Shown here piece by piece: positions 15,389 through 32,795 of a stretch of DNA of 41,083 nucleotides. A model generated the notes under the pieces. It made no database searches. It was not told where the DNA came from and saw only the letters and a program-made list of their open reading frames with translations. This DNA is from Prevotella sp. (GTDB lineage: Bacteria; Bacteroidota; Bacteroidia; Bacteroidales; Bacteroidaceae): positions 1 through 41,083 of the forward strand of contig JAEEPZ010000024.1 in the NCBI GenBank assembly GCA_016285055.1, read 5' to 3'. Position 1 is the stretch's first letter. Every line of letters begins with the position of its first letter. The position numbers and the translations under genes were made by a program.

Positions 15389-17455
15389 GTGAGTCAACCA
15401 ACAAGCAACCAGCCCAAGATGCCCCGGTTCAACATGAACTGGATCTATATTGTTGTCATAGCCGCGCTGGCCTTTTTCTATTTCACCAGCGAGAACAATG
15501 GCCTGCAGTCAGTGCAATCCGCTCAAAAGGAGACCAGCTACGACGAGTTCAAGGCCCGCGTGGACAGTGGCTATGCGTCGAAGATAGTCATCAACAAGGA
15601 CGTGAGAACCCTGAAGATGTATGTCAAGCCTGAATACATCCGCGAGGTTTTCAACCGTGCCCCGCAGGAGGTGGGCAACGAGCCGTACCTCGCGGTGGAG
15701 ATAGGCAGCATAGAGAAAGTGGAACAGTTCCTGGAGGATGCCCGCAAGAACGGACGCTTCACAGGGCCGCTGTCCTACGAGCGCGAGGAGAGTGCCGGAT
15801 TCCTCAGCAACCTCATCGGCATGCTGCTGCCCATCTTCTTCTTCGTGGCCATCTGGATGTTCTTCATCCGCAGAATGGGCGGTGGAGGCGTCGGCGGAGG
15901 AGGAGGCATCTTCAACGTCGGCAAGTCGAAGGCGAAGATGTATGAGAAAGGCGGCGACCTGGGCATCACGTTCAAGGACGTCGCCGGACAAGCCGGTGCC
16001 AAGCAGGAGATACAGGAGATAGTGGATTTTTTGAAGAACCCGCAGAAATATACCGACCTGGGCGGTAAGATTCCCAAGGGCGCCCTGCTGGTAGGCCCTC
16101 CGGGAACGGGTAAGACACTGTTGGCGAAGGCTGTGGCAGGCGAGGCCGGCGTGCCCTTCTTCTCGATGAGCGGCTCCGACTTCGTAGAGATGTTCGTGGG
16201 CGTGGGTGCCAGTCGTGTGCGTGACCTCTTCCAGCAGGCAAAGGCGAAGAGTCCCTGCATCATCTTCATCGACGAGATAGACGCCGTGGGCCGTGCCCGC
16301 TCGAAAAACCCCGCCATGGGTGGCAATGACGAGCGCGAGAACACGCTGAACGCCCTGCTGACCGAGATGGACGGCTTTGGCACCAACAGCGGCATCATCA
16401 TCCTGGCCGCCACCAACCGTGTGGACATGCTCGACTCGGCCCTGCTGCGCGCCGGACGCTTCGACCGTCAGATCAACGTCGACCTGCCCGACCTGAACGA
16501 GCGCAAGGAGGTGTTCATGGTCCACCTGAAGCCGCTGAAGCTCGACTCGTCGGTCGATGTCGATTTCCTGGCACGTCAGACGCCAGGCTTCTCAGGTGCT
16601 GACATTGCCAACGTGTGCAACGAGGCAGCCCTCATCGCCGCCCGCCACGACAGTCCGACGGTGGGCAAGCAGGACTTCCTCGACGCCGTGGACCGTATCA
16701 TCGGCGGTCTGGAGAAGAAGACGAAGATTATGACGCAGGCAGAGAAGCGCTCGATAGCCATCCACGAGGCCGGCCACGCCACCATCTCGTGGTTCACCGA
16801 GTTTGCCAACCCGCTGGTGAAGGTGAGCATCGTGCCGCGCGGCCGCGCACTGGGTGCCGCCTGGTATCTGCCCGAGGAACGCGTGCTGCAGACGAAAGAG
16901 GCTATGCTCGACGAGATGTGCTCGCTGCTGGGCGGACGTGCCGCCGAGGAGCTGTTCATAGGCACCATCTCGACAGGAGCCATGAACGACCTGGAGCGCA
17001 CCACGAAGCAGGCCTACGGCATGATAGCCTTTGCAGGCATGAGCGAGAAGCTGCCCAACATCTGCTATTATAATAATAATGAGTATCAGTTCCAGCGACC
17101 CTACAGCGAGACGACGGCAAAGATCATGGACGACGAGGTGCTGCGCATCATCGGCGAGCAGTATGAGCGCGCCAAGCAGATACTGACCGAGCACAAGGAG
17201 GGCCATGCCCAGCTGGCTCAGCTGCTGGTAGAGCGTGAGGTCATCTTCGCCGACGACGTGGAGAAGATCTTCGGCAAGCGTCCCTGGCAGAGCCGTGCCG
17301 ACGAGCTGCTCGAGGCCCAGATGCGTGCCGATGCCGAGCGCATGGCAGCCGAGCGTGAGCGTCAGTTAGCTGAAGAATCCAAGAACGGCACAGCTGATGC
17401 AACTGACGGTAAAACAAATGTAGCCCCCTCAGGGGCAGAAGGGAGGGCTTCATGA
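15389..17455 (+). CDS. ftsH: ATP-dependent zinc metalloprotease FtsH
   Basis: A 688-aa inner-membrane AAA+ protease that degrades membrane and regulatory proteins. Two membrane segments (about 18-35 and 136-160) flank the periplasmic part; then a Gly-rich linker, Walker A GPPGTGKT near 236, Walker B IIFIDEID, second-region-of-homology RAGRFDRQ, and the zinc site HEAGH at 459-463. The GTG at 15389 is the likely start because it gives the polar N-terminal leader typical of the family; the alternative is ATG at 15419. The last residues ([12 protein letters not shown]) are encoded by a G/C-rich palindromic repeat, so the extreme C terminus seems to be repeat-derived. The stop overlaps the cdsA start by four bases. 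Confidence 0.95.
17421..17450. repeat. Palindromic intergenic-type repeat forming the 3' end of ftsH
   Basis: GCCCCCTCAGGGGCAGAAGG followed by GAGGGC is an imperfect G/C-rich inverted repeat of the style found between genes elsewhere here. It is read as the final ftsH codons and ends just before the cdsA ATG. Confidence 0.5.
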
Positions 17456-18414: not shown

Positions 18415-18496
18415 GCGCCTGTGGCGGAATTGGTAGACGCGCCAGACTTAGGATCTGGTTTCTCACGAAGTGCAGGTTCGAGTCCTGTCAGGCGCA
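18415..18496 (+). tRNA. tRNA-Leu (anticodon TAG)
   Basis: Acceptor GCGCCTG pairs with CAGGCGC. The anticodon arm is CCAGA-CTTAGGA-TCTGG with anticodon TAG. A long variable arm (TTTCTCACGAAGT) marks class II leucine tRNA, and the T-loop is GGTTCGAGTCC. CCA is not encoded. Confidence 0.95.
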
Positions 18497-18506
18497 CAAA
18501 CAACAA

Positions 18507-18580
18507 GTCGGCATAGCTCAGCTGGTTAGAGTATCACCTTGACATGGTGGGGGTCCTTGGTTCGAGTCCAAGTGTCGACA
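18507..18580 (+). tRNA. tRNA-Val (anticodon GAC)
   Basis: Acceptor GTCGGCA pairs with TGTCGAC (one G-T wobble). The anticodon arm is TCACC-TTGACAT-GGTGG with anticodon GAC, and the T-arm is CTTGGTTCGAGTCCAAG. It lies 10 bases after tRNA-Leu and shares its promoter. Confidence 0.95.
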
Positions 18581-18591
18581 CGAAATTAATC

Positions 18592-18880: not shown

Positions 18881-19375
18881 ATGAACAGAAAGTATTTACA
18901 AGCCCAAGGCTTCGAAGGGTTCAAGACAATGAGCGAGTTGATGGATGGTGCAAGGACACAGATTCCTTCCCAGAAGGGTGTTTATGTCGTGCTCCGTGAG
19001 AGCGATTTAGCCCCACAATTCCTGACCGAAGGAACTGGCGGCTTCTTCAAGGGGAAGAACCCGAACGTCTCTATTCCTGAGCTGAAAGCCAATTGGGTGG
19101 AAGGCACGCCCGTCGTTTATATCGGCAAAGCCGGTGGTGCAGGTTGTTCAGCCACGCTACAGAAACGATTAGGCCAATACTTGCGCTTCTGACAGGGCGC
19201 AAACATTGGTCATTGGGGCGGCCGCTACATCTGGCAGTTAGCCGATTCAAGAGACCTGGTCGTCTGCTGGAAGCCCTTGACCAATGAAGAGCCTCGTGAG
19301 GTGGAGCACCGAATGATTGCAGACTTCAAAGCCACCCATACAGGTAAAAGGCCTTTTGCAAATCTGAAGGACTAA
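18881..19375 (+). pseudogene. GIY-YIG nuclease-like protein interrupted by an in-frame TGA
   Basis: The reading frame encodes 102 residues ending LQKRLGQYLRF, a TGA at 19190-19192, then continues in the same frame for 61 further codons (QGANIGHWGGRYIWQL to PFANLKD) to a TAA at 19375. GVYVVL and VVYIGKAGG resemble the GIY and YIG halves of the GIY-YIG nuclease fold, and the Arg in KRLGQY could be the catalytic one. A one-base change GGA to TGA would restore Gly and an uninterrupted 164-aa protein. No frame change is needed, so this is best read as a nonsense-inactivated gene. The 102-aa product could persist but lacks the C-terminal third. Specific role unknown; families of this fold act in DNA repair, restriction or mobile elements. 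Confidence 0.65.
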
Positions 19376-19395: not shown

Positions 19396-19560
19396 TTATA
19401 AAGACTTTTGTAACATATTAAACAGCTGCTCCAAAGTATCTGCCCCTCTTTTCGCTTCATCCAGCCTCCTGCACATTTCTTCTGCAACATCTGGCGTATA
19501 CATGTTGCGAAACTGCTTTTTTTTACTTTCAATAAACATTTCCTTCTCTACGTCATTCAT
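19396..19560 (-). CDS. Small protein of 54 aa, unknown function
   Basis: The minus strand encodes 54 residues beginning MNDVEKEMFIESKKKQF and ending QLFNMLQKSL. It is highly charged and probably helical. The ATG at 19560 is preceded by AAGGAG at a fitting distance, and a TACCTTTG promoter points at it from 19684-19691. It is transcribed divergently from the ATPase genes and could be regulatory or part of that cassette. No family was recognised. Reality rests on the ribosome-binding site, the promoter and the protein-like composition. Confidence 0.55.
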   Translation of the reverse strand: MNDVEKEMFIESKKKQFRNMYTPDVAEEMCRRLDEAKRGADTLEQLFNMLQKSL

Positions 19561-19683
19561 AGTATTATTCTCCTTTGTCTTGTTCGTTTGATATTATTGC
19601 TGGTTTAAAACCAACTTATCTCGTTATGTAGGTGATTATGGTCGTGCCTACTTTCTGACTAGTATGAATTCGCAAAAACGATG

Positions 19684-19691
19684 CAAAGGTA
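19684..19691 (-). promoter_or_regulatory. Promoter -7 element for the 54-aa gene
   Basis: TACCTTTG on the minus strand, about 124 bases before the ATG at 19560. The 19561-19821 gap is otherwise non-coding and holds divergent promoters. Confidence 0.5.
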
Positions 19692-19785
19692 CGAAAAAAC
19701 TTCCAACTGAAGCCTTGAAATATTAAAAATGATTATATTCAAGTCATTTGTTAACAATTTCAACCTTGTTTTCGTAAATAATGTG

Positions 19786-19793
19786 TAACTTTG
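19786..19793 (+). promoter_or_regulatory. Promoter -7 element of the ATPase cassette
   Basis: TAACTTTG lies 28 bases before the ATG at 19822, with CTTG about 17 bases upstream as a weak -33. It would drive the 19822 and 23708 genes. Confidence 0.65.
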
Positions 19794-19821
19794 CGCTATC
19801 CTAAAAATATTAAACTGATTT

Positions 19822-22800
19822 ATGTTAGATTTGCTAAAACAAGATGCTCATGTAGGCGATTCTCTGAATTTGTATCTTACCACAGGTAATTCTTTGAGGG
19901 GTACTATTCTTGAAATAGGTGAAACCTTTTTACTTCTGGATGTAGATGGCGTGAGAAGGCGCTATTTCCCTCAATTAATAGGAGGATGGGATGTCGTAAA
20001 TGAAACTTCTCAAATGGAAACTCCCCCAAAACCTACAGAACAGTCAGCGGATGGAGATGAGCAAAATAATGAAGAAAGTAACGAAGATGATAATAATGAC
20101 ATCCTAATCTCATTGTTCGATAGTATCTACGAGAATGAGCATATAGCCATGTCCACAACCATAATAACTAATGCTGTCGTAGAGAAAGTATCTCCAACTG
20201 GAGTTAGTGTTATTTCTGATAGTGGGGAGAAATTTATATGCCACAAAGGGTTTATGGTTGGTTTTTCTCGAGCAAATTGTACTCCAGGAAAGCGTCTGTT
20301 CTGTGGTACAGTAAACACTAGTGGACCACAAAAGGGAATATGCTTTCAGTCTGTTTTGCAGATGTCTTTTGAGGAAATGAGAGAACGGTTTATTATTGCA
20401 ATCTCATCCAAGCCAGCACCCCGTAAACCGATTATCAATTCCGTTATTTCCTATTTTAGAAAGAATTACAGTGGTAAACCAACAAAAAAAATCATTGCAG
20501 ATATCCGTACCAAGTTGAATTTGTTGGGGAATACTGGTAAAGTTGGAAATACGCAATTAGATAAGTATATATCATTTAAGCAATATGGCAAAGCGTTTGA
20601 CCTTATTGAGCGTGAAATAAGTTCGTCCGAAGACGAGAAACAAAAATCGGCATTATTGTTAAGGAAAGCTCAATTATATTCTTCCTTAAAAGATCATGAA
20701 AATGCAATATCTGCATATCGTGAATTAATATCTTTCAACGAAAGTATTAATTCCCCTTCAAAGAATCTTAGTCATCTCTACACAGAATTGGCAAGACTCT
20801 TATTCCTTACAGGAGACATTGAGCAGGCAGAAAGTGCAAGAAGTATTGCATTAATGCTTAATCCACAAAATTCAATCGCAAAGAAGATTGGTGGATTGGA
20901 CAATAGCAAAGGCAACAACGAAGAGAATACTTTAGAAAATGTCAAAACATTACCCCAAGAAGATGAACAGAACTGCCAAACGGTAAAGTTCACAGACAAG
21001 AGCTTAATTGATGATGACATTGACAAACATGCGTTTACTGATTCAGAAATAGTATCGTTAAATGGTGAAGTGACAAACGAAATAGCAACTCGTTTGTTAG
21101 AAAGTGCGAGTGCATCTGAAGATTACAACCGCCATATTGAAGCGGCAAAAGCCTTAAAGAATTTGCCTATAGGTAGTTATGATATTCAAGATCTGGAAGA
21201 TACTATTACCAACTACTCGATATGCAAATGTAATTCATTGTTCAACTCGTATAAGAAAGTAGTTTTTGAGAGTGATTCATTAAAGAGTATTTCTATCGAG
21301 CAACTGAATAGAATAAAAGATAGTGCTATTTGTTATTCTCTTGAAACCATAGAAAATATTTTAGACGAAGATGAAGATACAGCAACAAAACTGTTGCTAA
21401 ATTGTCTTTTGCTTGAATTGTCCTCAATATACATTACTCAAAAGAAATCGAAGGTTTCTGTTTTGGATGTATTGGCTTTTTCATTAGACGGTCTGATTAC
21501 GTTTGTTATGAGTTATAAAGAAAGCCTACTTGTGGCCAATCTTTTTGTAAAATTGGTAAACTATTCATTGCAATGTCGGAATCTGTGGGAAAAACTTATT
21601 CTTAAATCAAATCAATTTGTCACCTTTGTTTCTTATATTCAAGACAGTAAAGTAATAAAGCAAGATATTATTAATATAACGCCGCCTCTTAAGAAGCGTG
21701 ATGTCAATGATATTAATTACGTGGATATTTTGAGGAGGCACGAGTCTAATCGCATCAAAGTGTCAATCCAACAATTGAGAAAGATAAAAAACACTGATTT
21801 TGATATTTCTTCAATTACCCTATTACAAAAGAGGATTAGTTCTATCGTAGGTGAGAAGCGGCTCCGCTTTTTTAGTGATACAGATAGAAAGAGTCTGGTA
21901 AACATTCAACATTTAATATCTTTGCTATCATTATATCAAAAAAAGAATGAGGACGAAAGAAAAGACATAATAGCAAATGTGTTTTTAGTGATTGATGAAA
22001 TGCTTAGATGGAATAGTGGTGAAACTGCAACCAAGATAGGAAGATTCTATTTTTACCCCTTGCTTTCATCATGGAAAGAATCTATATCAAGATTAAATGC
22101 AAAAGAGGAATACAAGGATAGTTGTTTACTCACATTAGAAATGGATTCTCCTTATTATATTGCTAATGGAGATAGCAGCAAAAGTATTACTGCTATAGTA
22201 TACAATAATAGTAACCTAATATCAGAAGGGTATAAATTGGCCATTTGGATTGGGGATAACAGAAAAGATAGCATCTTTAAAAGTGATGATAGGTACATCC
22301 TGCCGAATTCTAATGTTCCAATTAGCATTTTGATTCCGCAAGAGAAGTGGGGAGAACTGAAAACATATGAGTTAAATTTTGCTGTAAGTTCTAGATATCA
22401 AGGAAAGTGGTCAAATGCAGAATTCTTAAGTGCGACTATTACAAGCAAAAGAGATATTTCATTTAAGAAAGGAGAACAGAAATGGCGCGATAGTGGTAAT
22501 CCGCCTGTTGAAATGTTTAAAGGACGTGATGGTATTGTTAATGAATTGAAAGAACAATACTGTTCTCAAAACAGACGCTACTCTTATGTGCTATATGGAC
22601 TTTCAAGAACAGGAAAGAGCACTATTTTACATTATTTGAAAAGAGCGATTGAAGGTGTTGAGATAGAAGGCACAAACTCAACGAAAGTTGTACTGCCCTT
22701 GTTTGTCGACTTAGGCGATATTTATGGTAATGTCAATAGTAGTGAAAAATTTTGGAAACTGTTTATAAAGAATATATATAATGACACTACTGACTTTATT

Positions 22801-23727
22801 AAAAAATATAAGCCAGGGATTAATATAGAAAAGCCAGAAGATTTTAGTCAATATATCATGGATATGGATAAATTAAATATCCATCCACTATTTATGCTTG
22901 ACGAATTTTCATTCATGCAAGATATAATAAATAAAGGGTATATTAACTCTGCTTTTTTGCAATATATGCGCACAATATCTGCTGATAAGGATCTTGCTAG
23001 CTTCCTTTTTGCTGGAACATATGATATAAAGAAACTCATTCATGATTCTAAGTATAATATTTCTGGTGCTTTTACATATTTAAGAGAGCCAGACAAGCCT
23101 TTATTTGAAATATCAAGTGACGCGGCGGAAGAGTTGATAAATATGATGCAAGGGCAATTGGATTTTTCTCCAGCTGCTACGCGAGAAATACATCGCTTAA
23201 CAGGAGATGTACCTTTCTGGATTCAGAAAATATGTCTAAATTGCGCTTTTTATGGGGTTGACAACAATAAACCTGATATAGGTATTCAGGATTTAGAAGC
23301 TGTCGTTTGTAAAATGACAGAAGAACTAAGTAAACCTTCAAAGAAGACAGACTCTATTCCAACTTTAACGGATGGGAACTTCAGCCAAACACAGATTCTT
23401 GATACAGACTCTGAAGAGATGAAAATAGTTCTTACTAGTATTTCATTCTTAATGAAAGAGTTAGACGCTAAAGAAGGTGTAACCTATGAGCAAATTAAAG
23501 CATTATGGGCTGAATATAACACCGATATATCTAATTATAATATAAAAGAGGCCTTGGATGCTCTTTGTGAAAGAAAGACGTTAACATTTGAAGACATTGA
23601 AAATATGCGTTATTATAGATTCTCTTTAGATTTATTTAGACGCTGGTGGCTTCATAAGCATTTTGTTTTTGAATTACAATTATCATCATTTAAAAAGAAT
23701 AGCAAAAATGAACACTTTACCTTTTAG
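19822..23727 (+). CDS. Large multidomain P-loop (STAND-like) ATPase with beta-barrel and TPR-like regions
   Basis: A 1301-aa soluble protein of unknown specific function. In order: a small beta-rich domain at 1-60 (LRGTILEIGETFLLLDVDG), an acidic Asn/Glu linker, a second beta-rich domain about 112-175, a TPR-like stretch about 250-350 (EKQKSALLLRKAQLYSSLKD), a long helical region to about 760, a beta-sandwich-like region about 770-890, and an ATPase module from FKGRDG near 899. The P-loop is GLSRTGKST at 926-934, Walker B LFMLDEF has Asp1027-Glu1028, and FLFAGTYD suggests a sensor strand. The end looks like a winged helix (YEQIKALWAEYN, RRWWLHKHF). The GRD start followed by a P-loop resembles archaeal-type/STAND ATPases, common in signalling and phage defence. 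It is far more AT-rich than the flanking housekeeping genes and overlaps the next gene by 20 bases. Confidence 0.75.
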   Translation: MLDLLKQDAHVGDSLNLYLTTGNSLRGTILEIGETFLLLDVDGVRRRYFPQLIGGWDVVNETSQMETPPKPTEQSADGDEQNNEESNEDDNNDILISLFDSIYENEHIAMSTTIITNAVVEKVSPTGVSVISDSGEKFICHKGFMVGFSRANCTPGKRLFCGTVNTSGPQKGICFQSVLQMSFEEMRERFIIAISSKPAPRKPIINSVISYFRKNYSGKPTKKIIADIRTKLNLLGNTGKVGNTQLDKYISFKQYGKAFDLIEREISSSEDEKQKSALLLRKAQLYSSLKDHENAISAYRELISFNESINSPSKNLSHLYTELARLLFLTGDIEQAESARSIALMLNPQNSIAKKIGGLDNSKGNNEENTLENVKTLPQEDEQNCQTVKFTDKSLIDDDIDKHAFTDSEIVSLNGEVTNEIATRLLESASASEDYNRHIEAAKALKNLPIGSYDIQDLEDTITNYSICKCNSLFNSYKKVVFESDSLKSISIEQLNRIKDSAICYSLETIENILDEDEDTATKLLLNCLLLELSSIYITQKKSKVSVLDVLAFSLDGLITFVMSYKESLLVANLFVKLVNYSLQCRNLWEKLILKSNQFVTFVSYIQDSKVIKQDIINITPPLKKRDVNDINYVDILRRHESNRIKVSIQQLRKIKNTDFDISSITLLQKRISSIVGEKRLRFFSDTDRKSLVNIQHLISLLSLYQKKNEDERKDIIANVFLVIDEMLRWNSGETATKIGRFYFYPLLSSWKESISRLNAKEEYKDSCLLTLEMDSPYYIANGDSSKSITAIVYNNSNLISEGYKLAIWIGDNRKDSIFKSDDRYILPNSNVPISILIPQEKWGELKTYELNFAVSSRYQGKWSNAEFLSATITSKRDISFKKGEQKWRDSGNPPVEMFKGRDGIVNELKEQYCSQNRRYSYVLYGLSRTGKSTILHYLKRAIEGVEIEGTNSTKVVLPLFVDLGDIYGNVNSSEKFWKLFIKNIYNDTTDFIKKYKPGINIEKPEDFSQYIMDMDKLNIHPLFMLDEFSFMQDIINKGYINSAFLQYMRTISADKDLASFLFAGTYDIKKLIHDSKYNISGAFTYLREPDKPLFEISSDAAEELINMMQGQLDFSPAATREIHRLTGDVPFWIQKICLNCAFYGVDNNKPDIGIQDLEAVVCKMTEELSKPSKKTDSIPTLTDGNFSQTQILDTDSEEMKIVLTSISFLMKELDAKEGVTYEQIKALWAEYNTDISNYNIKEALDALCERKTLTFEDIENMRYYRFSLDLFRRWWLHKHFVFELQLSSFKKNSKNEHFTF

Positions 23728-25531
23728 AGCAAATCATGAAATTAAAGATCCTAAAATTCTGTTTGGGAGGAAGGAAGAATTGCAAAAATTGTGCGATTTT
23801 GCAGAGGGCTTACATCAAATCGAGGTAATTGGCGCTAGAAGATTTGGTAAGACCTGTTTGATAAAAAGTTTTATCACATTGCGAAAAGAAAATGTAAATT
23901 GTAATTCATACCCATTATATGTTGATGTTAGTTCTGACGACATCAAAGGAACACTAAATATCTATCGGTATTTAACCTCACAATTGGTGGCAAATCTACT
24001 AAATGATGGATATATCGAAGAAGGAGTGTTGACAATAGACGACTTCAATATTATCCCAAACAAGAATTGGAAAAAAGTATTCAAGCAATTAGGCGCAGTA
24101 GAAGATGAAATTGATCAGATAGGGATATTTGACGAGGCAATAGAATTGTTTTCGCGACAACTTGGACAAACCATTTTGTTAATCTTTGATGAATATGAAA
24201 GAACGGTAGATGCATTTGATAGCATAGATGGGCTTAGGCACATACGTAAGATGACAAATGATTCTAATTCCTTGTCTTTTTGGATTGTAGGTGCATCACC
24301 ATGGAAAAAATTCATTCTAGATTGTAGTCAAGACGTTCGGGGTTCTGGCGTTTTCAATGGAATTACATTTAACGTGGATGTTTGTCCATTAAAAAAAGAT
24401 GATTTCCATAATATGTGGAGCTATGAATGTAGTTTAATAGCAGATGACACTAAGCGGAAGTATTTGGAATCATTATGGGAAAAGGTATTTGCTTCATCTG
24501 GTGGTGTCCCATGTTTTGCAAAAGAAATAGGTGGCTTTACATATATAGAAGGTAATTATCCTCAGTATTATCGTTTAAAAAACCATTTTGTAGAGTTAGA
24601 GAAGAACCTAACTGATAGTGAGATTAGGTGTATCCGAAAGCTTTCGATTTCTCCTCAAGAGTATACTGAATCGGAGAAACCAGACTCTGTCGTGACACTG
24701 GAGCAATATGGCTTAATTTGCACAGACGAAAATAATAAGTATTATGTTGCATCTCGTTTTTTCGCAGATTACATCAGAGCTGGGGTGTACGAAGAGAAAT
24801 TGTATCAAGAAGAAGGAATCTCTATAGAGGCAATTGTAAAAGAAATAATAACAGTTATCTACAAAATCAATGACAAATATAAAAGCCAATATGGAAAATT
24901 TATGTTTGACCCAGCAAATAATACGACATTATTATATCAGGCTTTGAGTACTAAATGCGATAGTTCTGAGAAAGCTCCCAATTTTGTCAACTCAATATAT
25001 TTGCTATACTGGGAAGGGGCAAAAGAAAACGGAAGAGCAGGTGAAAAGCTACCAGAATATTTCAGAAAGACTATGTTTAGAAAGTCCATGGACAGAATTC
25101 GCCATATTTTTGGGAAAGCTCATCAACAAGATAAACTTGATACAAATTATGACCAAATTGATAAGATCTCGGCTCTACAATTTATTATTGGAGATTCTAT
25201 TGAGCCGCAAAGCCCTTCGGATTGGTTGTACTTCCAAGAGCGTATGCTAATTCTCTTTTTGCAGGAACTCAAAGATTTGGATGATAGCATTGGTAAAGAA
25301 CTACAAGATGGAGCCTTATTTAATGGTGTTATTGTTGAAGTGGAAAATAAAGGAACAATATTCAAAAACATCAAATACAGATACTGGTCTATGCCCTTAA
25401 GACCATATAGGTGTTATCTCGATTCTTTTTGTAATGGAGAGGAAGTCTGTTTTACAGCCAAGAAAGTAATGGATCCAAATGATCCTTCAAAGTCATATTG
25501 GATGGCGAAGGATGTGCAAAAAAGAAATTGA
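23708..25531 (+). CDS. Second P-loop (STAND/archaeal-type) ATPase
   Basis: A 607-aa ATPase starting 20 bases before the upstream stop, so translation is probably coupled. ILFGRKEELQKLCDF precedes the P-loop GARRFGKTC at 42-50; Walker B is LLIFDEYE with Asp161-Glu162; SFWIVGAS resembles a sensor-1 strand. A winged-helix-like part follows (VVTLEQYGLICTDENNKYYV), then a helical region of no recognised family (about 380-540). The last 70 residues (FNGVIVEVENKGTIF, GEEVCFTAKKV) suggest a small beta-barrel of OB or cold-shock type. The ATPase core is the same class as that of the upstream protein, so the two may form a hetero-oligomer. The ATG at 23708 was preferred over 23663 because it begins the conserved region. 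AT-rich like its neighbours. Confidence 0.75.
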   Translation: MNTLPFRANHEIKDPKILFGRKEELQKLCDFAEGLHQIEVIGARRFGKTCLIKSFITLRKENVNCNSYPLYVDVSSDDIKGTLNIYRYLTSQLVANLLNDGYIEEGVLTIDDFNIIPNKNWKKVFKQLGAVEDEIDQIGIFDEAIELFSRQLGQTILLIFDEYERTVDAFDSIDGLRHIRKMTNDSNSLSFWIVGASPWKKFILDCSQDVRGSGVFNGITFNVDVCPLKKDDFHNMWSYECSLIADDTKRKYLESLWEKVFASSGGVPCFAKEIGGFTYIEGNYPQYYRLKNHFVELEKNLTDSEIRCIRKLSISPQEYTESEKPDSVVTLEQYGLICTDENNKYYVASRFFADYIRAGVYEEKLYQEEGISIEAIVKEIITVIYKINDKYKSQYGKFMFDPANNTTLLYQALSTKCDSSEKAPNFVNSIYLLYWEGAKENGRAGEKLPEYFRKTMFRKSMDRIRHIFGKAHQQDKLDTNYDQIDKISALQFIIGDSIEPQSPSDWLYFQERMLILFLQELKDLDDSIGKELQDGALFNGVIVEVENKGTIFKNIKYRYWSMPLRPYRCYLDSFCNGEEVCFTAKKVMDPNDPSKSYWMAKDVQKRN

Positions 25532-25625
25532 TTCCACGGGAAATAATTGCATCCGTAATACGCAGATTTGTATTGAAGAACTATGCCTTAATCAAATATT
25601 AGTAGTTTTTCTGCGCAGCAAAGTT

Positions 25626-26618
25626 ATGACAAAAAATAAAAAGACAGCGATGCGTGAGGGACAAGATAAGTTTGCTCGCCTCATGCGATTAGACCAATTG
25701 CTCCGCTTCCCAGAAGGGTGTACGTTAAACGAAATTTTGACAGACACTCAAATTGACGACATTAGTGAGCGCCAACTTCGGGACAATTTGAAAGAATTGG
25801 AGGAGAAATATGGCGCAGTCTTTGAAACTGGACTACATAGAGGCAGGGAGAGACTGTGGAGATATAAGGACACGACCTTTTCTATTATGCAACAAACCTC
25901 TCAAGATATGGAGGTTATCCGTCAGTCTCTTGAGAATCTGAATCTCTTTAAAGGCGATCCACGTTATGACATGCTCAGATTCTATCTAATGGGACTACAG
26001 AAAGGAATCTCTGAAACAGGTCTCAATTTCATGTCCTTTGACAACAATAATGAAGTCGCAGGCCTTGACTACGTGGAGTCAATCCTCGAAGCTATTACCC
26101 ACAAATATCCCTTGAAAATGTGGTATAAACCGTTCAATAAGGATGAGTTTGCAGGCAATATCCACCCCTATCATCTCCGGCAATATAATCGGAGATGGTT
26201 TGTATTCGCATACTCAGAGGACAGAATGGAAATACAAAATTATCCGCTTGACAGAATTGTCAGGTTAGAGCATTTAAGCAAACCATACATTGAAACTGAT
26301 GTTGATTTTGAAGAATACTTTGACGATATTGTCGGTGTTTCTAACTACAAAGGCCGCCCTGTGGAAAAGGTTGTGCTGAAAGTAAGCAATAAAAGTATTG
26401 ACTATATTAGAACCAAACCCCTACATTGGTCTCAGACAGAACTTAAAGAGTTAGAAACTGAGAGCGATGCATTCTTCCAATTGAAACTCAAAATCAACAC
26501 TGAATTGGAGATGCTTTTGTTCTCCTATAGCGATGCCATTGAAGTTATAGAACCATTATGGCTAAGAGAGAAATTTGCAGAAAAAGCAAAAAGGTTGTGT
26601 GATATGTACAAAGTGTGA
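25626..26618 (+). CDS. WYL-domain transcriptional regulator
   Basis: A 330-aa protein with an N-terminal winged helix (RLDQLLRFPEGCTLNEIL, SERQLRDNLKELEEKYG) and a WYL domain (about 150-240: YPLKMWYKPF, IHPYHLRQYNRRWFVFAYS, PLDRIVRLEHL). The C-terminal part (PLWLREKFAEKAKRL) is typical for the family. WYL proteins bind ligands, often nucleic-acid derived, and commonly regulate defence operons. It lies 94 bases after the ATPase pair in the same direction and shares its AT-rich composition, so control of the cassette is plausible but inferred. The ATG at 25626 was chosen; an in-frame ATG at 25479 would overlap the previous gene and adds unrelated sequence. Confidence 0.88.
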   Translation: MTKNKKTAMREGQDKFARLMRLDQLLRFPEGCTLNEILTDTQIDDISERQLRDNLKELEEKYGAVFETGLHRGRERLWRYKDTTFSIMQQTSQDMEVIRQSLENLNLFKGDPRYDMLRFYLMGLQKGISETGLNFMSFDNNNEVAGLDYVESILEAITHKYPLKMWYKPFNKDEFAGNIHPYHLRQYNRRWFVFAYSEDRMEIQNYPLDRIVRLEHLSKPYIETDVDFEEYFDDIVGVSNYKGRPVEKVVLKVSNKSIDYIRTKPLHWSQTELKELETESDAFFQLKLKINTELEMLLFSYSDAIEVIEPLWLREKFAEKAKRLCDMYKV

Positions 26619-26652
26619 AGTAATTCTTCATAGTTGTGCGATTTTTTCATAG

Positions 26653-26660
26653 TACTTTTG
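26653..26660 (+). promoter_or_regulatory. Promoter -7 element for the 26693 gene
   Basis: TACTTTTG fits TAnnTTTG and lies 33 bases before the ATG at 26693. An upstream start at 26636 would precede this promoter, so it is unlikely. Confidence 0.55.
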
Positions 26661-26692
26661 CAGCGTCAATCATCGAAACCACCTCGAGATTG

Positions 26693-27184
26693 ATGCTGCA
26701 AATGCTTAGTGGTGGCAACCTTAATCTGATCAATGCTATGACAAGTACAGCACTTCAGACCATCGTGGCAAAAAGCCTTCCTGCCCTCTCGGGCGAGTCA
26801 CTCACCTACAACGCCGCCAAGAACGTGTACCTCACGCTCGGCTACACCAGTGCGGCGGGGAACATGTACTACAAGGCCATCCGGGTCTCGAAAAAGCTGG
26901 CCGTGTTCTACCACATCGGTCAGGGCTATGCCCGTACTTTCCTGAACGGCATCACGCTGTTCTGCTGGGACGGGACTAAGGCCAGGATCATCGGCCAGAA
27001 GTTCTGGGGCGGTAGCAACTGGCGCGACTTCTCGGAGTACTTCGCCAAGGAGCAGAGCATCCTGATGCTGAAGGACTTCATGACGAGCCAGATGAAGCTC
27101 CAGGGGGCGCATGTCAGCGAGCAGGAACTCCTCACCTTCTCACGGGCAGCCATTGAGGAGACACAACACAAGCAGTTGGCATAA
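26693..27184 (+). CDS. Unknown protein, related to the next gene
   Basis: About 163 residues, no recognised family. The start is uncertain: ATG at 26693 or 26702, both behind the promoter element. The middle reads LAVFYHIGQGYARTFLNGIT and GTKARIIGQKFWGG, and the end EQSILMLKDFMTSQMKLQG. The second half aligns by eye with the 27244 product (ITLFCWDGTKARIIGQKFW with IELYAFNGQRMELIQKRDY, and MLKDFMTSQMK with MVKDYLTGVMK), so the two are probably diverged paralogues. GC content returns to the level of the housekeeping genes here. Probably cotranscribed with the 27244 gene and the helicase. Confidence 0.65.
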   Translation: MLQMLSGGNLNLINAMTSTALQTIVAKSLPALSGESLTYNAAKNVYLTLGYTSAAGNMYYKAIRVSKKLAVFYHIGQGYARTFLNGITLFCWDGTKARIIGQKFWGGSNWRDFSEYFAKEQSILMLKDFMTSQMKLQGAHVSEQELLTFSRAAIEETQHKQLA

Positions 27185-27243
27185 GAGCCACTGCTTGTGA
27201 CAAGGACAACACAAAGTTCAACCAAAAACAAACCGACAAAACT

Positions 27244-27750
27244 ATGGCAACACTGACCAAAGCAATCAACAAGAACCTGTTTGACAGCATCCTGCCGCCC
27301 TTCGGCAGTCCACGCGTTCACCTCCCCGTATGGGATGAGGGGCAGAAGATGTTCATCTGCAACGAGTACGAGAGCGAGAGCGGACACCGCTACTACCTCG
27401 GCATCCGCTTTTGCGACCGCATCGTCATTGTGGAGAAGGTTGGGCTCTACCACAACTGGACCTACATCGACAGCATCGAGCTTTATGCCTTCAACGGACA
27501 GAGAATGGAACTCATCCAGAAGCGCGACTACGAGAAGGAGTTCCGCAACGAGGCGTTCATCCGCCAGGAGTCAGAGCAGATGGTGAAGGACTATCTGACT
27601 GGCGTGATGAAGACGCAACGTATCAGCATTCCGGCAGAGCAGATTGCAGCGCAGGCCTCTGATCTGGTCAACGGGTGCTACAAGAGCTTCCTCGACCGCG
27701 ACTTCAACACACGTTTAACCCAAATACTTCCAAAACTCGAACAGCGATAA
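27244..27750 (+). CDS. Unknown protein, related to the preceding gene
   Basis: A 168-aa soluble protein of no recognised family, starting MATLTKAINKNLFDSI. Strand-rich middle (YYLGIRFCDRIVIVEKVGLY, IDSIELYAFNGQ) and helical end (EQMVKDYLTGVMKTQ, AAQASDLVNGCYKSF). It resembles the upstream product over its second half. The stop lies 2 bases before the helicase start, indicating one transcript. The pairing with a Pif1-type helicase hints at DNA metabolism, but nothing in the sequence proves it. Confidence 0.72.
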   Translation: MATLTKAINKNLFDSILPPFGSPRVHLPVWDEGQKMFICNEYESESGHRYYLGIRFCDRIVIVEKVGLYHNWTYIDSIELYAFNGQRMELIQKRDYEKEFRNEAFIRQESEQMVKDYLTGVMKTQRISIPAEQIAAQASDLVNGCYKSFLDRDFNTRLTQILPKLEQR

Positions 27751-27752
27751 CC

Positions 27753-29813
27753 ATGGAGAACACACTCGACAAAGAGAATAAGCAGCAGTTGCTCGCCTAC
27801 GAGCTGATTGCCAACACGAATTCCAGCTTCTTCCTGACCGGTAGGGCTGGAACTGGTAAGACAACCTTCCTGCGCAAGGTGCAGCAGATGGTGGACAAGC
27901 AGTTCATCACGTTGGCCCCTACTGGCGTGGCAGCCATCCTGGCGGGTGGTGATACCATCCACTCTTTCTTCGGATTGCCGATGGACGTCTGCACACCAGG
28001 CACGATGGGAAAGATGAGCGAGGCGCGCATACAGACGCTGCTCCATACCGACACCATTATCATCGACGAGGTGTCGATGGTGCGCTGCGACATCATCGAT
28101 GCCATCGACTACACCATGCGAAAGACGCTACGCTCCATGCAGCCCTTCGGTGGCAAGCAGGTCATCTTCGTGGGCGACATGTTCCAACTACCGCCGGTGG
28201 TGAAGCAGGGAGCAGAGCGCGAACTGATGCACGACCTCTACCACACGGACGATTTCTTCTTCTACAAGGCCGACGTCATCAAGCGGATGCGGCTGGTGAA
28301 GATAGAGTTCCAAAAGGTGTACCGCCAGGAGGATGAGGACTTCCTGCACATACTGGAGAACGTGCGCCTGAACAGGGCGACTCCAGAGAACCTGATGCAC
28401 CTGAACGAGCGCGTCGGCCAGCCGACGAAGGCCGACGGCATGGTGATAACGCTCGCCTCGCTCAACAAGACAGCCGATGCCCTCAACCAACAGCGGCTTG
28501 CCGAGATTGACTCTGAGGAGTACACCTACGAGGGAACGGTGCAGGGCAAGTTCGAGGAGAAACGCTTCCCCGTTGACATGACGCTGAGACTGAAGGTGGG
28601 TGCACAGGTGATGTTCACCCGCAACGACCCGCAGAAGCGCTGGGTGAACGGCACCATCGGCACGGTATCGAAGCTGACAAAGGACGAGATACAGGTAACG
28701 ACCGACGGCGGTGATACCTACGTCGTACCCTGCTGCTCGTGGGAATCGTACAGCTATGAGTACGACCGCGAGGCCCGCAAGATGAAGAAGGAACAAGTGG
28801 GCACGTTCACCCAGTACCCGCTGCGGCTGGCCTGGGCCATCACCGTGCACAAGAGTCAGGGCATGACCTTCGACAAGATGTACCTTGACCTGAGCCGGGG
28901 AATGTTTGCCGCCGGTCAGCTCTATGTCGCGCTGAGCCGTGTGCGCTCGCTCGGCGGCCTGTTCCTCTCTCGCCCCATCATCCCGCAGTATGCCCACACC
29001 AGCCGTGAGGTGCTGCAGTATGCCAGCGGCTACAACGACAACCAGGTAATCAACAGCGAGATAGAGAGCGGCAAGGCCGTCTATCAGCTGTTGGCTCGCC
29101 ACGACTACGACGAGGCTGCTCGCCAATACCTGCTATTGGTGCAGAAGAAGGCTGAGGATAGTGACATCAAGGAGGCGATGCAGCAGGCGAAGCGGTTCCT
29201 CGATACCGTCATCTGTGATGATGATCTCTTTGGCTGCATCACGGAGATTCCCGAGGCGCTGAAGGAAACTGACCATTGGGCACCCAAGTTCCTTGTGGCT
29301 CTGTTGAGTCTTTATGCCGAAGAGTATGAGCAGGCATTGACCTACGCCGATAGCGTGCTGACCCAGCACCAATGCCAGGAAGCGCTCTATGTGAAGTCAC
29401 GCTGTCTGGCCAGGCTCGAGCGCTATGAGGAGGCCGATGCCGTGAATGTGCTGATGGGCGATGTGTTCGATATGTCGACACCCGACTGCAAGGTGCTCTA
29501 CATGATTGCCATGCTCAACGAGTTGCATATTGGTGACCCTGGGTTGAACATGATGCAGGAACTGATCAAGGCAAGGCCCAAATACGACAAGGGTATCCTG
29601 TCGCTTCGTTTCCTGATGAAGCGGAAGGGACTGGCACTCGTGAAGAACTCCAACGAACCTCGGGAGTTGGTGGATGACTTCAACTCCGACATCACCGAGG
29701 AGGAGTTTGCCCACAAACTGGCAACAGCCCGTGAGAAAGCGCCAAAGGCTGCGGAGTACTTGCTTCGACTGATAAAGAGGCAAGCATTCACAGCAGAACC
29801 GTTGGACGATTAG
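27753..29813 (+). CDS. Pif1/RecD-like superfamily 1 DNA helicase with TPR-like C terminus
   Basis: A 686-aa helicase of the Pif1/RecD2 group, which unwinds DNA 5' to 3'. Walker A TGRAGTGKTT lies at about 29-38, then LAPTGVAAILAGG, Walker B IIIDEVSM near 104, VIFVGDMFQLPPV, and the UvrD_C_2-type closing motif WAITVHKSQGMTFDKMYLDL with YVALSRVRSLGG near 365-405. Beyond about 430 there is a helical, TPR-like extension (YEQALTYADSVLTQ, EALYVKSRCLARLERYEEAD) not needed for helicase activity and perhaps for partner binding. ATG at 27753 follows the preceding stop by 2 bases. A terminator lies downstream. Confidence 0.9.
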   Translation: MENTLDKENKQQLLAYELIANTNSSFFLTGRAGTGKTTFLRKVQQMVDKQFITLAPTGVAAILAGGDTIHSFFGLPMDVCTPGTMGKMSEARIQTLLHTDTIIIDEVSMVRCDIIDAIDYTMRKTLRSMQPFGGKQVIFVGDMFQLPPVVKQGAERELMHDLYHTDDFFFYKADVIKRMRLVKIEFQKVYRQEDEDFLHILENVRLNRATPENLMHLNERVGQPTKADGMVITLASLNKTADALNQQRLAEIDSEEYTYEGTVQGKFEEKRFPVDMTLRLKVGAQVMFTRNDPQKRWVNGTIGTVSKLTKDEIQVTTDGGDTYVVPCCSWESYSYEYDREARKMKKEQVGTFTQYPLRLAWAITVHKSQGMTFDKMYLDLSRGMFAAGQLYVALSRVRSLGGLFLSRPIIPQYAHTSREVLQYASGYNDNQVINSEIESGKAVYQLLARHDYDEAARQYLLLVQKKAEDSDIKEAMQQAKRFLDTVICDDDLFGCITEIPEALKETDHWAPKFLVALLSLYAEEYEQALTYADSVLTQHQCQEALYVKSRCLARLERYEEADAVNVLMGDVFDMSTPDCKVLYMIAMLNELHIGDPGLNMMQELIKARPKYDKGILSLRFLMKRKGLALVKNSNEPRELVDDFNSDITEEEFAHKLATAREKAPKAAEYLLRLIKRQAFTAEPLDD

Positions 29814-30378: not shown

Positions 30379-31343
30379 CTATTGGCTTTCTTTGATAATC
30401 TCCCAGAAACCGCCCTTGTCTGGGCCAACACGTCGAACTACTCCTTGAACTTGCAATTTCCTGATATTTCTGGCAACATTTCTCCTATCAATACCAATTA
30501 TGTCAGCCATCTTAGAGGTTGTGATGTAAGGATTTTCCCTTACCAAGTCAATGATTTTCTGTGGCGTTTTCTGTGGCGTTTTCTGTGACGTTTTCTGTGA
30601 CGTATCTGTGATGCTTCCTGTGACGTTATCTATGACGTTTTCTGGTAACTTTTCTGTCAACCCTTGCGTATTTTCTGGTAACTTTTCTGTTCGCTTCTGT
30701 TCGGTTACTAATCGAACAGAAGAGTTTTCTGTGACCTTTGGCACTGTAATCTTCAAGATGAAGTCATCAGTTCGGAAAGAAGGGGCTTGGGCACCATTGG
30801 CTTCCTGTTCCCGACAGACACGATCCATGCCCTCGCCGAACTCTTTCACGTAGTGATAGACTTTCAGGAATGCCGCTATCTTTGGATTGCGCGAGAAGTG
30901 GGTATTTCGGATGTTGCTGGGCTTCGCTTGACCAGGTAACTTGCCTGGCGATTCAAATACCAGTCGGTCATCGAACATCTTTATTTGGATTTCAGTCCCC
31001 TTTATATTGTACGCCCTATGACAAACGCTATTAACAGTCATCTCTTGTATCACGAACTTAGGATAGTCACGACGGGTAACAAACTTACCATGCTGTCCGA
31101 GGAAAGTGTGCTCCCGTACCTGGGTCTCCAAGTACTCGACTGTTTTCTTGACTTGATTCAATATGGTTCCCTCAAAGGTGACATCCTTGATGACGTTCAT
31201 CTCTGCACCTACCTTCTCGTCAGTTCCTTCAAACCGCTTGCTAACCTCCGCCATCCACTTAGGCAGCCTTTCATGCGGTATGTTCTTCTTTCATACGTAC
31301 TCTTAGCAATACGCTGATCAGGTAATTCTTCATAAGTCTTTAA
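30379..31343 (-). pseudogene. RecG-related/HATPase_c_4 DNA-binding protein, N-terminally truncated and frameshifted
   Basis: The longest intact frame, 30379-31254 (291 aa), matches the C-terminal part of the AlbA_2/HATPase_c_4 regulator family (NSVCHRAYNIKGTEIQIKMF, RLVFESPGKLPG, FGEGMDRV) and ends with a winged helix (ITTSKMADIIGIDRRNVARN). Upstream the family sequence continues in another frame: TYEELPDQRIAKSTYE is readable from 31343, and KKNIPHERLPKW leads into MAEVSKRF. Loss of one A from a GAAAAG run would explain the shift. No start codon or AlbA domain precedes it. The linker holds QKTSQKTPQKTPQK, encoded by 12-base tandem repeats. The 291-aa piece could still be made from its own ATG. 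Confidence 0.65.
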
Positions 31344-31356
31344 TCATTGGACGCTA

Positions 31357-31364
31357 CAAAGATA
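31357..31364 (-). promoter_or_regulatory. Promoter -7 element upstream of the RecG-like remnant
   Basis: TATCTTTG on the minus strand. The surrounding sequence (GACGCTACAAAG, 15 bases, GAAAGAAAAA) is repeated at 32901-32937 in front of the DnaB-like gene with identical spacing. Confidence 0.55.
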
Positions 31365-31410
31365 CAACTTTTTCTTGAAAGAAAAAGGGTTTTGAACAGA
31401 AATTGTGTTT

Positions 31411-31872
31411 TCACAAGGCTTGTGGATAATCAGGCAGGGAAATCCAGTCTGTATGTCCGTATTCACCGTTATGAATCTCTTCCATAAAACGCTTCCTTGC
31501 TTCCACGAAAGACTCAGGAACAGTCACGTGTGGTTTTTGGTTGGGATTGTTCACATAGCCTCGTCTCATGTTGATACAGTCACCAAGGGCCATGAATTGC
31601 ATGAGTGTCATCACGCGTGACGGTAATACGCGCAAATGATATGCCTCCTTCGTGTCGTAACATTGCCGATATTCCTGGCTCAAGTTGTAAAATTCTATGT
31701 CATCAAGGCAACACACTATTCGCATCGCCTCCAAATAGGCCTCAGCATATTGGTCAAAGAAATCATTACTGACCTCTCCGCCCATTTCCTCCTCGCTGAA
31801 CAATGCAGGCTCAGTGGTGATGAAAACATCTTTACCGATGGGGAATGGATTCTTTTCCCACTGTTTCCTCAT
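31411..31872 (-). CDS. Unknown protein coupled to the DnaB-like ATPase
   Basis: A 153-aa soluble protein with no recognised family. It is acidic and Tyr/Phe-rich (DFFDQYAEAYLEAMRIVCCL, DIEFYNLSQEYRQCYDTK) and includes VMTLMQFMALGDCINMRRGY. Its ATG overlaps the stop of the upstream ATPase gene (ATGA), so the two are translated together and may act together. Confidence 0.7.
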   Translation of the reverse strand: MRKQWEKNPFPIGKDVFITTEPALFSEEEMGGEVSNDFFDQYAEAYLEAMRIVCCLDDIEFYNLSQEYRQCYDTKEAYHLRVLPSRVMTLMQFMALGDCINMRRGYVNNPNQKPHVTVPESFVEARKRFMEEIHNGEYGHTDWISLPDYPQAL

Positions 31873-32795
31873 TGTTGTGTCTCACCGCTATTACATTCAA
31901 CCAATCCGAGCTTATTGATAAGAGTGTCGATCTTATAGCCGCTCGATTTCCTGAAGAATTCTAAAGTGGTCTTCTCCCTGTCTGCATATTCTTTCAGGAA
32001 CAAATAACCCCAAGGCAAGTAGAAGCGCCTGTTGACTAAACGTCCCTTGCACTTGAGAATCTCCAAGCCGATAATGTCTTTTAGATCACGGCCATGTTCA
32101 TCTTGATAGATACAATAGTCTCCATAACGGATTAATCCAATCACGGTGTCGCTTCCATGTATTTCATTGTAAAAGAAGAAATCGCGCAGGGCAGGACGTG
32201 CACAATCAATCCCATCCCGGTCGTTCCACACGCAGCAAGTGACCACAACGGGGATATTCATCCTCAGGGCAAGCGACTTGTAGCAGTTGATGATGTTTCG
32301 CTTGGTGGTTGAATAGTCGTAATACTGGCAGACCTCATCGACAAACACAATCTTGATGCCATGCGTGGCAATCATTTCCTCCAGCGCCTCGTTTACAAAC
32401 GCTTCGTTCTTCCTTGCTGCATCAAGAATAAACAAGGGTGCTTCCTTCAGCTTCTCCAAATATGCATTTACAGCCGGGCTGTGTTCCTCTGCAGTTAAGA
32501 CATTATTAATAATGTTTGTCTCTATAGAGCAATAGTAGGCTGCCATGCAAGCAAGGAAAATCCGTTCCGACATATTGTTCATCACGAGGAGTGTAGGAAT
32601 GTGCTGGTCAACAGCGATGTGGTTCAGCTGAGCGATGGTAAAAGCTGACTTTCCACAGTTCTCGTCCCCACAAACCGTGGTCAGCTGTCCAGGATAGTAG
32701 CCACCTATCACGTCGTCTATCAATTTGAAGCCAGACGATACGGATTGTACCTGCGACTTTTGGTTTTTCTCTACTATAGTACTGATATGTTCCAT
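31869..32795 (-). CDS. DnaB-like (RecA-fold) ATPase
   Basis: A 308-aa protein resembling the C-terminal ATPase domain of replicative helicase DnaB without its N-terminal domain. SGFKLIDDVIGGYYPGQLTT matches the DnaB entry motif, Walker A is GDENCGKS at 43-50, TLLVMNNMSERIF corresponds to the FSLEMS region, and IKIVFVDEVCQYYD is Walker B. The C-terminal arginine-finger part (LEILKCKGRLVNRRFYLPW) also fits. It may be a domesticated or mobile-element-derived ATPase. A promoter lies about 110 bases upstream; the leader between encodes a protein-like stretch without a start codon. Confidence 0.8.
   Translation of the reverse strand: MEHISTIVEKNQKSQVQSVSSGFKLIDDVIGGYYPGQLTTVCGDENCGKSAFTIAQLNHIAVDQHIPTLLVMNNMSERIFLACMAAYYCSIETNIINNVLTAEEHSPAVNAYLEKLKEAPLFILDAARKNEAFVNEALEEMIATHGIKIVFVDEVCQYYDYSTTKRNIINCYKSLALRMNIPVVVTCCVWNDRDGIDCARPALRDFFFYNEIHGSDTVIGLIRYGDYCIYQDEHGRDLKDIIGLEILKCKGRLVNRRFYLPWGYLFLKEYADREKTTLEFFRKSSGYKIDTLINKLGLVECNSGETQQ

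Follow-up and report, generated by a model that had tools for sequence, protein, structure and literature searches.

A Prevotella cassette of two STAND-like ATPases and a WYL regulator as a candidate anti-phage system with a predicted RNA-cutting response

A stretch of 41,083 nucleotides from Prevotella sp. (assembly GCA_016285055.1, contig JAEEPZ010000024.1, positions 1 to 41,083; hereafter the window) was analysed for a cassette that had been placed at 19396..26618 and proposed as a defence system in an earlier reading of the sequence (the original prediction). The open reading frame (ORF) listing revealed three ORFs on the same strand, all present in the window, namely ORF1, ORF2 and a WYL regulator gene, and these lie, as had been stated, downstream of a tRNA pair. 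The features of the cassette are as follows.

18415-18581, tRNA-Leu and tRNA-Val, upstream of the cassette
19786..19793, forward strand, TAACTTTG, candidate promoter-like element ahead of ORF1, proposed from sequence only
19822..23727, forward strand, ORF1, 1301 amino acids, with N-terminal barrel, TPR, variable helical region and STAND-like ATPase; predicted sensor
20653..20742, forward strand, TPR repeat of ORF1 (residues 278-307)
22597..22620, forward strand, Walker A of ORF1, GLSRTGKS
23708..25531, forward strand, ORF2, 607 amino acids, with STAND ATPase, HEPN-like helical domain and OB-like tail; predicted executor
23831..23854, forward strand, Walker A of ORF2, GARRFGKT
24815..25312, forward strand, HEPN-like helical domain of ORF2 (residues 370-535), placed by predicted helices and motif position
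25100..25123, forward strand, RHIFGKAH, an Rx6H motif (R465, H472) at the end of the third long helix of the HEPN-like domain
25316..25522, forward strand, OB/cold-shock-like barrel at the ORF2 C-terminus (residues 537-605)
25626..26618, forward strand, WYL-WCX regulator, from an in-frame ATG at 25626
20339..26332, no strand assigned, block nearly identical to the related locus L001

The ORF2 frame is open from 23663 (622 amino acids) and the ATG at 23708 is its likely start, giving 607 amino acids and a 20-base overlap with ORF1; the WYL frame is open from 25479 (379 amino acids). We take TAACTTTG to be akin to the Bacteroidota TAnnTTTG promoter type. The borders proposed for the cassette stood in part: 19396-19821 contains no ORF of at least 100 amino acids, and a co-occurring trio of genes at 26636-29813 (S1, S2 and PIF1) had been missed. 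The claim that the cassette is more AT-rich than its flanks is confirmed: the GC content of ORF1, ORF2 and the WYL gene (0.34, 0.35 and 0.40) is below that of the trio and of the upstream gene at 15389-17455 (0.54-0.60). A further downstream stretch at 30379-32795 is likewise low (0.446).

Protein searches found at least 87 relatives of ORF1 and at least 71 of ORF2, both lower bounds with about 8000 candidates scored for each. A collection holding one genome per species yielded nine loci of the pair, L004 and G084 (L011, L040) being counted once. Consistent with the conservation claimed for the gene pair, ORF1 stands directly before ORF2 in 8/8 loci holding that side, L006 being cut there. A pattern scan identified Walker A and Walker B with an acidic pair in all 75 ORF1 homologues of at least 1200 amino acids (P0004-P0085; the five most distant matches, P0086-P0090, were excluded) and in all 65 ORF2 homologues of at least 500 amino acids, so that the description of two overlapping genes with P-loop ATPase modules is upheld. 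GC at third codon positions (GC3) is 0.29-0.31 for ORF1 and ORF2 in the window and 0.25-0.31 when seven loci (L001, L002, L004, L005, L007, L008 and L009) are included, as well as in a distant pair at L041; neighbouring genes in the hosts of the pair reach 0.76 or more.

The structure model of ORF2 (pLDDT 87) has a STAND fold in fold searches, with an ATPase core followed by a helical and winged-helix part. The top match is an archaeal STAND protein, well ahead of TnsC, and the anti-phage protein Avs4 (8dgf) is among the Foldseek matches (E 4.9e-5). The STAND class is defined partly by a GxP-type motif in the helical region beyond the ATPase core; GG[VI]P occurs in 61 of the 65 ORF2 homologues and is absent in P0118, P0120, P0122 and P0123. 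The assignment of ORF2 to the STAND-type ATPases is thus supported by the fold of its model. Comparison with PADLOC-DB 2.0.0 gave weak matches, the best being PDC-S01 (8.3e-4, residues 33-143 of the 622-residue reading), and no Avs-type model at E up to 1.

The original prediction recognised no known nuclease domain. Analysis of ORF2 residues 370-535 revealed a HEPN-type RNase motif, R[HNQ]x3-5H with a polar residue after R, in 65/65 homologues (shuffled rate 5.3%), and that statement is not supported. The helices predicted in this domain span 8-30, 41-49, 58-69, 91-103, 109-114, 121-129 and 138-162, with R100 near the end of helix 91-103. Comparisons with known HEPN folds and profiles gave no direct match. 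Foldseek and VIA searches with a 242-residue ORF2 domain matched the OB part and placed no HEPN chain among the best 50 matches listed of each; Pfam gave no HEPN match at E 10; the domain profile found only five PDB chains (E 0.26 or worse), none named HEPN; and the best E value of single-sequence PDB searches was 0.25 or worse. Profile similarity was 0.3-0.5% for HepT and DUF4145, 0.1-0.2% for Swt1, HepT and DUF4145, and 0.1% for the Abi_2 protein of L006, and the HepT, DUF4145 and Swt1 sets likewise miss each other in this comparison.

For ORF1, motifs and profiles support a STAND-type ATPase. G1128 and P1131, a GxP-type motif after the ATPase core, are invariant in an alignment of 31 rows, and the TPR repeat is above the Pfam cut-off (TPR_8, E 7.6e-7), while AAA_22 matched below it (E 8.3e-4) and an Hfq-like match to profile positions 13-66 was borderline (E 0.027). 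Conservation among 62 sequences is lowest at residues 361-400 and 521-680, which makes these residues a candidate ligand region. No PADLOC-DB 2.0.0 model matched ORF1 at E up to 1. Distant forms of ORF1 at L004 and L005 carry an N-terminal zinc ribbon extension above the cut-off, and that of L008 below it; the relative at L041:3939-9044 has an N-terminal extension with a weak OST-HTH/LOTUS match.

The third gene was confirmed as a WYL regulator, with WYL (E 2.6e-11, 43.8 bits) and WCX (E 2.2e-9, 38 bits) both over the Pfam cut-offs and a PADLOC WYL match at 2.2e-28; the Pfam scan found no HTH family in its product. Its GC3 is 0.43 in the window and 0.42 in L001. A WYL gene is near the pair in 7/9 loci, following ORF2 in L001, L002, L004, L008 and L009 and lying no more than 3 kb upstream of ORF1 in L005, with one intervening gene, and in L007, with two; none was found at L003 and L006.

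Overall, our analysis suggests, with a little better than even confidence, that the two STAND-like ATPases and the WYL regulator form an anti-phage alarm with a predicted RNA-cutting response. ORF1 would act as sensor of a product of infection and would then activate ORF2. The ligand may be bound through the barrel, the TPR and the fast-evolving helical region (residues 521-680), and ligand together with ATP could drive assembly of ORF1 with ORF2, by which the HEPN-like domains of ORF2 would dimerise. RNA cleavage is the predicted action of the HEPN-like domain and would halt the infected cell, and the OB-like tail may hold or select the RNA substrate. The WYL protein probably holds down expression of the operon until an infection or DNA stress occurs. 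Of this scheme, the analysis directly shows the set of parts, their conservation, the STAND fold of the ORF2 model and the exchange of a block between genomes.

Relatives of the cassette are rare. Some match at 1e-3 was found in 22 of 399 genomes of the family, where full-length ORF2 occurs in two (the own genome and G084) and the other 20 matches are partial (E 1e-9 or weaker); among 393 genomes of the order, only the own genome matched at 1e-10. The genes are therefore accessory, and the homologues are not mainly core genes, the finding that would have told against a defence system. Searches of viral contigs, plasmids and phages were negative at the limits used. Among ten genes near the copies that were picked by eye for a mobile-element scan, two integrase-family genes lie 8-10 kb after ORF2 in L003 (within L003:13214-14959), and L009 has a relaxase some 6 kb beyond ORF2 (L009:18171-19379), a hint at mobilisable carriers. 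A relaxase also occurs near the distant pair in L041 (L041:1731-2924). The tRNA was considered as an attachment site and rejected, since an 18-base piece from the 3' end of tRNA-Val does not recur in the window, with up to three mismatches allowed. ORF2 might instead be a DNA-binding ATPase of the ORC/Cdc6 or TnsC kind, with the pair controlling replication or movement of a mobile element and the RxxH motif being structural. We regard this as improbable: the archaeal STAND protein outranks TnsC as fold match, the integrase and relaxase genes are distant, vary between loci and are not adjacent to the pair, and the missing tRNA copy and the negative searches of viral contigs, plasmids and phages also count against it.

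Comparison with L001, from the uncultured Prevotellaceae RUG14668, revealed 13 differences in the 5994 bases of 20339..26332, and thus a recent exchange. Adjoining homologous DNA has 71-86% identity (79% for the first 160 codons of ORF1, 86% for the WYL end, 76-78% for S1 and S2 and 71.5% for PIF1), and the outer flanks, at 42-46%, are unrelated. A near-identical block between diverged but homologous DNA shows directly that recombination has replaced DNA within a framework common to both loci. The block ends before the trio, whose features are as follows.

26636..27184, forward strand, S1, first small protein of the trio, a paralogue of S2; true start uncertain
26653..26660, forward strand, TACTTTTG, candidate element ahead of the trio, presumably promoter-like, judged from its letters alone
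27244..27750, forward strand, S2, second small protein of the trio, 168 amino acids; 646 homologous proteins
27675..29813, forward strand, PIF1-like helicase (Pfam PIF1 8.9e-35; phrog_325 Dda-like helicase 2e-79)

No Pfam or PHROGs family matched S1 or S2. All three trio genes follow ORF2 in 7/9 loci; L003 and L006 lack them and carry another SF1-type helicase (AAA_30/PIF1 matches) after ORF2. S2 occurs in 11 of 249 genomes of the family and in 5 of 393 of the order; both counts include the own genome, and one order match is weak. At the family rate of S2 the chance of 7/9 is 1e-8, an approximation that ignores shared ancestry.

Of 14 S2 loci outside the own genome 13 were examined (weak G752 was left out), and two (L044, L080) are cut, leaving 11. 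L038 and L046 hold an AAA_15 ATPase with NsnB-type PADLOC matches and WYL; L039 holds Csx1, Cas1 and a CRISPR array; L043 AbiLi and AbiLii; L045 a 12-repeat array; and at L081:875-18595 the trio lies within a type III-D CRISPR locus, with WYL before it and Cas1 and Cas2 after it. L042 has a protein with an nSTAND5 match below the cut-off and WYL. L040 carries the cassette, and L041 the distant pair, of 1701 amino acids (ORF1 profile E 5.6e-19) and 545 amino acids (ORF1 profile 2.6e-8, ORF2 profile 2.6e-6), plus WYL. At L047 an AlbA-like gene that has pAgo-type matches but lies 3 kb away was not accepted as a defence neighbour, and at L082 the two genes scanned included no defence gene. Known defence genes or arrays are thus present at 6/9 S2 loci when L040 and L041 are excluded, or 7/9 when L042 is counted. 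A PADLOC match at 1e-3 was found for 5/10 genes downstream of the trio, mostly to generic TPR models, and for 7/10 upstream, a weak control with the upstream genes picked by eye. Having been seen beside such diverse defence loci, the trio seems to be an independent module associated with defence, and it is found more widely than ORF2 (646 relatives, compared with 71). A gene with a D[TS][GC]SV motif, which we assume to be aspartyl-protease-like, follows the trio at L001:16149-17105, L009:17089-17649, L044:2296-3267 and L045:2354-3274; the L044 copy matches PADLOC PDC-M08B at 1.2e-7.

The constancy of the trio after ORF2 despite the rarity of S2, its position inside the CRISPR locus of L081 and the substitute helicase in L003 and L006 could be explained if the six genes from ORF1 to PIF1 were one machine, with the trio as core and the upstream genes lending only specificity. 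This is an unlikely arrangement, given that the codon usage of PIF1 tends toward that of the host (GC3 0.76 in the window, compared with 0.29-0.31 for ORF1 and ORF2, and 0.51-0.76 across loci, where S2 ranges over 0.40-0.76), that the exchanged block stops short of the trio, and that among the ten other family genomes with S2, ORF2 is present in G084 alone and a distant pair in G249. The trio is probably a separate, defence-associated module that is co-inherited with the cassette.

Defence genes among the neighbours of relatives, which the original prediction had expected, also bear on whether the pair acts against phages at all. A regulatory or toxin-antitoxin-like unit, in which ORF1 restrains ORF2 and persistence is by addiction, would accord with the overlapping genes, the WYL regulator, the predicted toxic domain of ORF2 and the patchy spread. 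Set against these are the very large size of ORF1, which keeps its own ATPase motifs in every long homologue, and the known defence genes near relatives and around the trio, and we give such a unit only a small chance. For the cassette we infer a role in defence, and the earlier reading as a whole is partly supported.

That reading also held that the mechanism would be new. Proteins in which a HEPN domain is fused to STAND-ATPase, TPR and S1 (Npun_F6454, MED222_16016, Desac_1927) were, however, already listed in 2013 (Anantharaman et al., PMC3710099). Their components correspond to those of the pair: a STAND ATPase and TPR, an RNA-binding domain of OB type, which in those proteins is S1, and a HEPN domain, predicted for the pair and described there as "mostly active" by motif. 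By description, the difference from those fusions (PMC3710099) is that the parts are split here over two overlapping genes, each with intact ATPase motifs, plus WYL. The domain set has thus been known in fused form since 2013, and the two-gene layout would be new. No two-gene STAND-HEPN pair was named among the literature matches listed; subscription papers and bioRxiv were outside this coverage, so that absence is unproven. Avs and bNACHT-type anti-phage proteins, which share the STAND ATPase, repeat sensor and effector, are single proteins, whereas sensor and executor would here be two STAND proteins.

A division of labour between sensor and executor is known from plant and animal NLR pairs, and paired sensor-helper NLRs are not known to carry a HEPN or OB domain. 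The likeness to such pairs (plant NRC helpers, NAIP/NLRC4), as outlined in PMC9975940, is confined to an analogy of layout. Prophages of Staphylococcus aureus encode Tha, a HEPN protein that acts against phages and whose RNase activity is set off by phage tail proteins; by description it resembles our reading of ORF2, and its abstract (PMC11087260) describes no STAND pair. For WYL transcription factors of the BrxR type, which stand beside defence genes as here by description, the summary in PMC9122601 gives 48% of homologues as co-located with known defence systems. BREX-related ATPases and STAND conflict systems are treated in PMC12839542 and PMC7159879, respectively.

A bolder and rather doubtful proposal is that the cassette is a bacterial counterpart of paired NLR immunity, with a STAND sensor and a STAND executor bearing a HEPN RNase and OB clamp, and that it inserts, as CRISPR-Cas, AbiL and AAA_15 systems would, at a site whose marker is a hitherto undescribed S1-S2-PIF1 module serving many Bacteroidales defence systems. 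If true, sensor-STAND and executor-STAND would divide their labour in bacteria within two overlapping genes testable on one plasmid, and the trio would be a marker for finding more defence loci in Prevotella-like bacteria.

Two further observations concern the surroundings of the cassette. Directly after tRNA-Val, a frame at 18881-19375, which we take to be GIY-YIG-like from its VVYIGKAGG motif, is broken by an in-frame TGA at 19190-19192. Imperfect 12-base direct repeats occur at 30546-30739, within a reverse-strand ORF at 30379-31254.
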